A DNA stretch of 64,000 nucleotides, taken from the NCBI GenBank assembly GCA_947373245.1, contig CANBWY010000001.1:1-64000 (forward strand). Direction: 5' to 3'. The notes beneath the pieces were generated by a model that ran no database searches, was not told where the DNA came from, and worked only from the letters and a program-made list of their open reading frames with translations. Position numbers and translations under genes: made by a program. Shown one piece after another: positions 10,274 through 14,649 of the stretch. Every line of letters starts with the position of its first letter. The first letter of the stretch is position 1. Source of the DNA: Comamonadaceae bacterium. GTDB lineage: Bacteria; Pseudomonadota; Gammaproteobacteria; Burkholderiales; Burkholderiaceae_C.

Positions 10274-11725
10274 ATGCACATACATATTTTGGGAATTTGC
10301 GGCACGTTCATGGGTGGACTGGCTGCGTTGGCACGTGAAGCGGGCCACAAAGTCACCGGTTGCGATGCGGGCGTCTACCCGCCCATGAGCGACCAACTGC
10401 GCAGTCTTGGCATTGAGCTAATCGAAGGCTTTGGCGCCGACCAAACGAAGCTCAACCCTGATGTGTACGTCATTGGTAATGTGGTCTCACGCGCCCGCTT
10501 GGCCGATGGCTCGCCAAAATTCCCCTTGATGGAAGCCATTTTGGAAAGCGGCGCCACCTACACCAGCGGCCCACAATGGCTGGCTGAACATGTGTTGCAC
10601 CACCCAAGCCAGCCACGCCATGTGCTGGCCGTTGCTGGCACGCACGGCAAGACCACCACCACGTCGATGCTGGCTTGGATTCTTCAAGCGGCGGGCCTAG
10701 AGCCTGGCTTCTTGGTGGGGGGCGTGCCCATGAACTTTGGCGTCTCGGCACGCCTAGGGCGCTTGAGCAGCCCTGCCGATGTGGCCGCACACCAACGCAC
10801 GCCCTTCGTCATTGAAGCCGATGAGTACGACACGGCCTTCTTCGACAAACGCAGCAAGTTTGTGCATTACCACCCCCGCACGGCGATTTTGAACAACCTC
10901 GAGTTCGACCACGCCGACATCTTTGACAACCTCGCCGCCATCGAGCGCCAGTTCCACCACTTGGTACGCACCGTACCCGGCAGCGGCCGCGTGGTGGTCA
11001 ACGCAGACGAAGACAGCTTGCAACGCGTGTTGGACCAAGGCTGCTGGAGCGGCATCGCCAAGTTTGGCGTGAGCGCCAATGCCACAGGCCTCCATGGTCC
11101 TGATGGCTGGTCAGTCCAAGGCGAGCCTGACAACTTTGCGGTGCTGCACCACGGCCAAGAAGTGGGCCGCGTGCAATGGGACATCACCGGTGTGCACAAC
11201 CAGCTCAACGCCCTAGCCGCCATCGCTGCCGCTGAACACTTGGGCGTCTCACCCGCGCAAGCCGCTGCCTCGTTGACTGAATTTCAAAACGTGCGCCGTC
11301 GCATGGAAGTGCGCGGCACCGTGACACGCGCAGGCGGCGACATCACCGTGTACGACGACTTTGCCCACCACCCCACCGCCATCCGCACCACCGTCGATGG
11401 CTTGCGCCGCAAAGTAGGCCCCAACGCGCGCATCTTGGCGGTATTTGAGCCACGCAGCAACACGATGAAGCTGGGCACGATGAAGTCGCAACTGCCTTGG
11501 AGCTTGGAAGACGCCAACTTAGCGTTCTGCCATTCGGGCGGTTTAGATTGGGACGCAGTGGCGGCCTTGTCGCCCATGGGCACGCGGGCGTCGGTGGCGG
11601 GCTCTGTGGATGAAGTGATTGCGCAAGTGGTGGCTGCTGCGCAGGCGGGTGACCATGTGCTGTGCATGAGCAATGGTGGTTTTAGTGGGATTCACGCGAA
11701 GTTGTTGGCGGCGTTGGCTGGTTAA
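10274..11725 (+). CDS. mpl: UDP-N-acetylmuramate:L-alanyl-gamma-D-glutamyl-meso-diaminopimelate ligase
   Basis: MHIHILGICGTFMGG start; [11 protein letters not shown]; Mur ligase domains. Confidence 0.93.
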   Translation: MHIHILGICGTFMGGLAALAREAGHKVTGCDAGVYPPMSDQLRSLGIELIEGFGADQTKLNPDVYVIGNVVSRARLADGSPKFPLMEAILESGATYTSGPQWLAEHVLHHPSQPRHVLAVAGTHGKTTTTSMLAWILQAAGLEPGFLVGGVPMNFGVSARLGRLSSPADVAAHQRTPFVIEADEYDTAFFDKRSKFVHYHPRTAILNNLEFDHADIFDNLAAIERQFHHLVRTVPGSGRVVVNADEDSLQRVLDQGCWSGIAKFGVSANATGLHGPDGWSVQGEPDNFAVLHHGQEVGRVQWDITGVHNQLNALAAIAAAEHLGVSPAQAAASLTEFQNVRRRMEVRGTVTRAGGDITVYDDFAHHPTAIRTTVDGLRRKVGPNARILAVFEPRSNTMKLGTMKSQLPWSLEDANLAFCHSGGLDWDAVAALSPMGTRASVAGSVDEVIAQVVAAAQAGDHVLCMSNGGFSGIHAKLLAALAG

Positions 11726-12993: not shown

Positions 12994-13020
12994 AAAAAAA
13001 AACCGCCGGGGGTCCGGCGG
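12994..13020 (-). terminator. Attenuator-type intrinsic terminator in the aroG leader
   Basis: On minus strand CCGCCGG-ACCC-CCGGCGG followed by nine T. Confidence 0.85.
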
Positions 13021-13053
13021 TTGGTTTGGGAGTTCAGAGCGTTTGGGCTACGT

Positions 13054-13122
13054 TCAGATCTCTCGACCGCCGTGGGGGCGTGAGATAAAAAAGTAAGCAA
13101 AATAAAAACGGTTCGAACTCAT
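13054..13122 (-). CDS. Phe/Tyr-rich leader peptide MSSNRFYFAYFFISRPHGGREI
   Basis: 22-codon ORF directly upstream of the terminator, containing FYFAYFF. Too short for the supplied ORF track. Confidence 0.8.
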   Translation of the reverse strand: MSSNRFYFAYFFISRPHGGREI

Positions 13123-13188
13123 AATTTGGAATGTAGCACAGGCAATCTAGCAGTTTGCTGACAAATCGCTAGGGTTTACGAGCGGCGT

Positions 13189-14649
13189 TTATGCCGTACC
13201 ACCCACCGTCAACCCATCAATGCGCAAGGTGGGTTGCCCCACGCCCACGGGCACGCTCTGGCCCTCTTTGCCACAAGTGCCCACGCCGGGGTCTAGCTTC
13301 ATGTCGTTGCCAATCAGGCTCACGCGGGTCAAGGCGTCTGGGCCATTGCCCACCAAGGTGGCGCCTTTGACAGGGTATTGAATCTTGCCGTTTTCCACCC
13401 AATACGCCAAAGAGGTAGAGAACACAAACTTGCCTGAGGTAATGTCCACTTGGCCACCACCGAAGTTCACAGCGTACAAACCTTTCTTGAGGCTGGACAC
13501 AATTTCTTCTGGCGATTTGTCGCCGCCCAACATGTAGGTGTTGGTCATGCGAGGCATGGGCACATGGGCGTAGCTTTCGCGACGACCATTGCCAGTGGGC
13601 TTGACGCCCATCAAGCGGGCATTCATGCTGTCTTGGATGTAGCCCTTCAAGATGCCATCCTCAATCAACACATTGCGCTGGCTGGGGTTGCCTTCGTCGT
13701 CCACATTGAGGGAACCACGGCGATCCGCGAGGGTGCCGTCATCGAGCACCGTCACGCCTTTGGCGGCCACGCGTTGGCCAATGCGGCCGCTGAAGGCGCT
13801 AGAGCCTTTGCGGTTGAAGTCGCCTTCCAAGCCGTGGCCAATCGCCTCGTGCAACAAGATGCCAGGCCAGCCTGGGCCCAACACCACACTCATTTCACCG
13901 GCAGGCGCAGGGCGTGCATCGAGATTGGTGAGCGCGCATTGCACAGCTTCATCCACATAATTTTGTATCAGTGCATCGTCAAAATGGTCAAGCCCAAAAC
14001 GGCCGCCGCCGCCCGCAGAGCCGACTTCGCGGCGACCGTTTTGTTCGGTAATCACGGTCACGCTCAAGCGCACCAAGGGGCGCACATCGGCCGCCAAAGT
14101 GCCATCGGCACGCACCACCATCACCACGTCGTATTCGCTGGCCAAACCGGCCATGACTTGAATCACGCGCGGATCTTTGGCACGGGCCATTTGCTCCACA
14201 AGGCCGAGTAGCGCTACCTTTTCGGTGCTGTTGAGTGAAGCAATCGGGTCTAAGCCGCCATACAAAGAACGGCTAGACGCCACTTTGCGCGTCGGCACTT
14301 TGACGCGGCCACCTTTAGCCGCTGCGCCAATCGAGCGCACGGTGCGTGCCGCGTCGAGCAAGGACGCTTTGGAAATATCGTCTGAATAGGCGAAGGCTGT
14401 TTTTTCACCGCTCACGGCGCGCACGCCTACGCCTTGGTCAATGCTGAAAGAGCCAGTTTTGACGATGCCTTCTTCCAAACTCCAGCCTTCGGAGCGGGTG
14501 TATTGAAAGTACAAATCGGCCTCATCCACCTTGTGCGCTTTGATCTCGGCCAAGGTTTTCGCCAAGTCGGATTCGTCCAAACCAAAAGGTTCTAACAACA
14601 GTTGACGGGCAATGGCCAATCGTTCAAGGGTGGGTTCGCGTGAAATCAT
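13189..14649 (-). CDS. tldD: Metalloprotease TldD
   Basis: HEAIGHGLEGDFNRKGSSAF and GTCGKEGQSVPVGVGQPTLRIDGLTVGGTA. Confidence 0.93.
   Translation of the reverse strand: MISREPTLERLAIARQLLLEPFGLDESDLAKTLAEIKAHKVDEADLYFQYTRSEGWSLEEGIVKTGSFSIDQGVGVRAVSGEKTAFAYSDDISKASLLDAARTVRSIGAAAKGGRVKVPTRKVASSRSLYGGLDPIASLNSTEKVALLGLVEQMARAKDPRVIQVMAGLASEYDVVMVVRADGTLAADVRPLVRLSVTVITEQNGRREVGSAGGGGRFGLDHFDDALIQNYVDEAVQCALTNLDARPAPAGEMSVVLGPGWPGILLHEAIGHGLEGDFNRKGSSAFSGRIGQRVAAKGVTVLDDGTLADRRGSLNVDDEGNPSQRNVLIEDGILKGYIQDSMNARLMGVKPTGNGRRESYAHVPMPRMTNTYMLGGDKSPEEIVSSLKKGLYAVNFGGGQVDITSGKFVFSTSLAYWVENGKIQYPVKGATLVGNGPDALTRVSLIGNDMKLDPGVGTCGKEGQSVPVGVGQPTLRIDGLTVGGTA

Follow-up and report, generated by a model that had tools for sequence, protein, structure and literature searches.

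Attenuators of aromatic amino acid biosynthesis

The pheL-pheA and trpL-trpEDCBA attenuators of Escherichia coli act at terminal branches of aromatic amino acid biosynthesis, each sensing a single amino acid through a leader translated from a 5' untranslated region (UTR) with a Shine-Dalgarno sequence. The locus described here lies upstream of the DAHP synthase gene aroG in a 64-kb window, by which we mean the whole stretch of DNA that was analysed. It shares with the two E. coli systems a leader open reading frame (ORF) and the logic of a 1:2 protector, a 2:3 antiterminator and a 3:4 terminator, but differs from them in standing before the first enzyme of the shikimate pathway, in carrying codons for several aromatic residues and in being probably leaderless. 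The preliminary description of this DNA had drawn the parallel with pheL; it holds for the logic of the hairpins but not as the sole precedent, a better one being aroR of Corynebacterium glutamicum.

In C. glutamicum, the AroR leader peptide, with its Phe-Tyr-Phe motif, precedes the DAHP synthase gene aroF (Neshat et al. 2014, as described in PMC11802643). According to that account, ribosome stalling at aroR raises transcription on Phe limitation, and Tyr availability is reported to be without effect. As far as the published description allows comparison, both loci place a leader peptide with Phe/Tyr codons before a DAHP synthase gene; unlike the short F-Y-F of the actinobacterium, the window leader has a longer aromatic run, to which relatives usually add Trp.

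A leaderless precedent is provided by trpL of Sinorhizobium meliloti (rnTrpL/peTrpL), where the attenuator RNA begins with the ATG of the leader peptide, the Trp codons control trpE(G), and both the terminated RNA and the peptide act in trans (PMC7298713). The window locus resembles it in having a promoter placed for a start, here a predicted one, at the leader ATG and in lacking a Shine-Dalgarno sequence; it differs in its Phe/Tyr codons and in the DAHP synthase gene that follows. Among gammaproteobacteria, attenuation has, going by the descriptions, also been predicted for DAHP synthase loci, namely aroF of Shewanella (PMC2659441) and the DAHP synthase-tyrA operon (aroA-tyrA) of Vibrio (PMC1173090); these predictions are Tyr-specific or of unspecified specificity, unlike the multi-aromatic window leader.

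We found no report of a beta-proteobacterial aroG leader in the open-access literature, and an earlier prediction elsewhere is possible. Searches against Rfam returned only weak and unrelated matches for the window (RNAI, ncS54 and NsiR1, E 1 to 4.5) and none at the gathering score, amino-acid leader families included, for 17 related loci. Identity of the leader with ncS54, a Burkholderia sRNA, was checked on the Burkholderia loci and is not supported. The leader is thus apparently an uncatalogued, well-conserved relative of the trp and phe leader-peptide switches: the type of mechanism is already known, while the combination of features is unusual.

The leader ORF and its conservation

The sequence comparisons and folding calculations set out below make it very probable that the locus is a ribosome-mediated transcription attenuator of aroG (Table 1). 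Direct support comes from the sequences themselves, their conservation, coding constraint, covariation and the order of events in the folding calculations. The Phe/Tyr-rich leader ORF, the CGGCGGT segment, the terminator with its T9 tract and the extended -10 element 7 nt before the ATG, all named in the preliminary description, were recovered base-exact on the minus strand. Within the window, the leader is the only ATG-initiated ORF of 10-40 aa that packs five or more aromatic residues into seven codons. A first-order Markov simulation yields 0.15 such ORFs per 64 kb and, at the observed level of six aromatics, none in 20 runs. The 130-nt leader also folds more stably than dinucleotide shuffles (z = -4.75). 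In the source genome (84% complete) one AroG-like protein was found, and neither a second one nor a class II DAHP synthase.

Table 1. Positions of the features of the aroG leader and its surroundings within the window
Feature	Position	Strand	Basis or remark
tldD-like gene, directly upstream of leader	13189-14649	minus	ends 67 nt upstream
Extended -10 promoter element TGTGCTACATT, no clear -35	13140-13130	minus	consensus of relatives
TGCTACATT	13138-13130	minus	7 nt to leader ATG
Predicted transcription start, at or next to A of leader ATG	13123-13122	minus	inferred from usual -10 distance
Leader peptide ORF MSSNRFYFAYFFISRPHGGREI with stop codon	13122-13054	minus	22 codons; frame kept in 129/130
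Leader start codon ATG	13122-13120	minus	
Putative regulatory codons F-Y-F-A-Y-F-F (codons 6-12)	13107-13087	minus	genus codon table and Trp counts
Element 1, AUCUC, 5' side of protector hairpin	13086-13082	minus	RNAalifold 1:2 hairpin; 94% of cells paired, with too little variation for much covariation support
Element 2, CGGCGGT (antiterminator) and GAGAG (closes protector hairpin)	13072-13060	minus	CGGCGGT 13072-13066; GAGAG 13064-13060
Leader stop codon TGA	13056-13054	minus	
Stop-to-terminator spacer ACGCTCTGAACTCCC	13053-13023	minus	
CUCC pyrimidine patch in spacer, tentative second GAGAG partner in antiterminator	13032-13029	minus	
Element 3, AACCGCCGG, terminator 5' arm and antiterminator 3' partner	13022-13014	minus	
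Terminator stem AACCGCCGG-ACCC-CCGGCGGTT	13022-13001	minus	
Element 4, CCGGCGGTT and T9 tract, intrinsic terminator	13009-12994	minus	T9 13002-12994
AGGA of aroG	12960-12957	minus	
aroG, class I DAHP synthase, the regulated gene	12949-11840	minus	PF00793, 317.7 bits
Imperfect inverted repeat GCCGAGAGCG..GTATCTGA.. / ..TCAGATACCACGCTCTCGGC	11835-11750		
mpl-like gene	10274-11725		

The tldD neighbourhood is retained at most loci of the Comamonadaceae and Burkholderia types. On the other side of aroG, the gap towards the convergent mpl-like gene holds a long imperfect inverted repeat, which has no T-run and is possibly a bidirectional terminator shared by the two genes.

Regions upstream of AroG relatives were gathered by family, genus and named-species searches, and 155 of them, each with at least 250 nt upstream, form the basis of the counts. 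In 149 of the 155, the DAHP synthase orthologue is preceded by a leader ORF in which aromatic codons are densely clustered. Forms of the leader include MQTRIAFYFYFWFSVPGGREASV (L005, Comamonadaceae type), MRFVPSYFFAYFWFSHRPAEERSARRL (L057, Rhizobacter), MSAKFYFYFFWYLRPLADREG (Burkholderia) and MNANRSFYFWYYGFPMPLAEEGVRSP (Xanthomonas). The six loci without it belong to three Polynucleobacter, two Cupriavidus and one metagenome-assembled genome (L061, L062, L063, L066, L069 and L090), and the absence suggests that the switch has there been lost or replaced. Genomes with two copies carry a second, roughly 58% identical DAHP synthase. The 20 upstream regions sampled from this second copy contain no comparable leader and terminator, only one spurious GTG ORF that overlaps the gene and is not followed by a terminator.

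A covariance model made from 43 leaders finds a single site in the source genome. Among 150 Burkholderiales genomes sampled, it detects sites in 31, a minimum count given the stricter filters. All 19 of the matches inspected in other Burkholderiales precede a DAHP synthase gene. Within the genus, conservation spans the region from the -10 element to the T-run and falls off past the terminator. The comparison of relatives that the preliminary description had proposed thus shows the aromatic run and the terminator/antiterminator to be kept in about 150 of them.

The ORF bears the marks of coding constraint. Its ATG lies 30, 33, 36, 39 or 42 nt from element 1, in frame in 129 of 130 leaders; the Phe and Tyr codons differ in their third base (TTT 433, TTC 220, TAC 149, TAT 91); and pN/pS over codons 6-14 within the genus is 0.45. 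Together, these observations argue for selection at the level of the protein, rather than for a mere U-rich stretch. They also bear on whether the element is instead a structured 5' UTR, a metabolite riboswitch or an attenuator governed by an RNA-binding protein, with no translated leader, as its strong conservation and alternative hairpins might suggest. Against this stand the synonymous variation of the aromatic codons, the in-frame changes in length and a geometry that follows ribosome position; moreover, there is no Rfam riboswitch match, and the structures are just the three hairpins of a leader-peptide attenuator. We regard such a riboswitch or protein-bound element as extremely improbable.

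The specificity of the leader appears to have shifted within the group. A Trp codon, usually directly before a conserved Phe/Ile-Ser, is present in 114 of the 121 leaders from outside the genus of the window, as against four of the 28 within it; codon 12 of the window leader aligns with the Trp codon of most extra-genus relatives. Judged from these codons, all three end products of the pathway, Phe, Tyr and Trp, were probably sensed by the ancestral switch; the genus of the window, in which Trp has mostly been lost, probably senses mainly Phe and Tyr. The Phe/Tyr specificity originally proposed therefore describes the window leader but not most relatives, whose added Trp codon makes the switch by origin an aromatic one.

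Terminator, antiterminator and protector hairpins

The terminator of the aroG leader has nine pairs, seven of them GC, and is the strongest of six terminator-like sites in 3.5 kb. A simple scan places a terminator between leader ORF and gene in 133 of 149 relatives and misses it in the other 16. Unguided RNAalifold analysis of 118 leaders returns two hairpins, 1:2 (UUCUC/AUCUC with GAGAG) and 3:4 (AACCGCCGG with CCGGCGGTT). The former, pairing AUCUC with GAGAG in the window, is a third hairpin, the protector, beyond those of the preliminary description.

The antiterminator 2:3 (CCGGCGGU with ACCGCCGG) consists of standard pairs in 85-90% of cases, compared with 16-64% when the partner is slid, and shows changes on both sides at four of eight pairs, a result equalled by one of 500 shuffles. 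Seven leaders combine CCGTC in element 3 with GACG(G) in element 2 and an unchanged CCGGCGG in element 4, so that the terminator pair has turned into U-G. The sequence of element 2 thus tracks that of element 3, as it must in an antiterminator. These leaders are probably related, perhaps reflecting one event in one clade, which leaves few independent compensatory events; a second compensatory change, AGCGG with CCGCT, occurs in L171. The outermost U-A pair of 2:3 is missing in about half of the leaders, where U is replaced by A or C. The pairing of CGGCGGT with ACCGCCG, first put forward from the single sequence, is nevertheless borne out by these pairing frequencies and compensatory changes.

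The antiterminator may extend into the spacer. In 84 of 136 leaders (37.6 in shuffles), the 18 nt leading up to element 3 contain CTC. We tentatively suggest that this pyrimidine patch, mostly located 7-11 nt before element 3, adds a second segment to the antiterminator by pairing with GAGAG. Conservation of the stop-to-terminator spacer within the genus is about that of the leader itself, and the spacer is possibly part of the antiterminator.

The position of tldD, which is on the same strand and ends 67 nt upstream, in an adjacency common among relatives, raises the question of whether the hairpin merely terminates tldD transcription, with the aromatic ORF a by-product of T-rich DNA. We reject this explanation as highly improbable: tldD is separated from the terminator by a conserved promoter element, the ORF keeps its frame and its amino acids, element 2 covaries with element 3, and several leader loci with long flanks have no tldD match (for example L052, L057, L065 and L071).

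For calculations of nascent folding of the putative attenuator, the ribosome was assumed to cover positions -15 to +12 relative to the A site, and the RNA was ended before element 4. A ribosome placed at any one of the six aromatic codons leads to formation of the 2:3 helix. With the ribosome moved to the stop codon this helix does not appear, nor does it in ribosome-free RNA, which folds into 1:2 instead. The notion that a stalled ribosome frees CGGCGGT and that one at the stop covers it was thereby reproduced. Because the terminator is always the favoured structure at equilibrium, the choice would be a kinetic one, as in other attenuators. Since the footprint reaches element 1 at Y10, F11 and F12, these are, in this model, the likely control codons of the window leader.

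In the proposed mechanism, RNA polymerase would begin transcription at the leader ATG or immediately beside it, and the leader would be translated leaderlessly. When charged tRNA-Phe or tRNA-Tyr is short, the ribosome would stall in F-Y-F-A-Y-F-F and block the pairing of element 1, leaving element 2 (CGGCGGU) free to pair with element 3 (ACCGCCG), so that no terminator forms and aroG is transcribed. When these tRNAs are charged, a ribosome at the stop, 9 nt past element 2, would cover that element, allowing the 3:4 terminator to end transcription. If the leader is untranslated, element 2 would be locked into the protector hairpin by element 1 and GAGAG, again ending transcription. The transcription start, translation, termination efficiency and amino-acid response are the parts of this scheme that we infer.

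Promoter placement and its wider meaning

Aligned on the leader, 142 relatives give the extended -10 consensus CTGTGCTACATT and no visible -35 signal; a sigma-70 scan that requires a -35 finds no promoter at the window locus. The -10 element was chosen by a scoring rule across a range of possible spacings; in 136 of the 142 relatives, 6-8 nt separate its end from the ATG, and positions that were not scored are also conserved, such as a G at -16 (96%). A Shine-Dalgarno-like motif occurs in none of 149 leaders. The fixed spacing and the missing Shine-Dalgarno sequence together predict a start at the ATG, and the leader is probably translated from a leaderless mRNA, as the preliminary description had suggested.

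In leaders of the Burkholderia type (L077, L082, L094 and similar), a TATAAAGT-like element stands about 25-35 nt upstream of the start codon. The mRNAs of these leaders are probably not leaderless, and leaderlessness is therefore not universal in the class. That a class including such leaders (MSAKFYFYFFW...) tolerates a 5' UTR lends some weight to the idea that attenuation is real at the window locus but that its leader, too, is translated from a longer 5' UTR. The spacing of the -10 element in the family of the window and the lack of Shine-Dalgarno-like motifs speak against it, and we consider it unlikely, though worth keeping in mind.

By analogy with S. meliloti, the leaderless, terminated RNA of about 130 nt, or the aromatic peptide, might also act in trans on other mRNAs. 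We think this quite doubtful; the unusual conservation of the spacer within the genus would fit such a role, and the tentative extra antiterminator pairing could also explain it. If true, the leader RNA or peptide would be a widespread dual-function signal of aromatic starvation in Burkholderiales.

The putative attenuator suggests how entry into the shikimate pathway may be regulated in Comamonadaceae and in Burkholderiales more widely; some Xanthomonadales have similar leaders. Its variants constitute natural experiments, setting leaders able to sense Phe, Tyr and Trp against leaders without Trp, and leaderless against 5'-UTR-bearing versions of the same switch. The leader would also probe whether leaderless translation couples to transcription tightly enough for attenuation.
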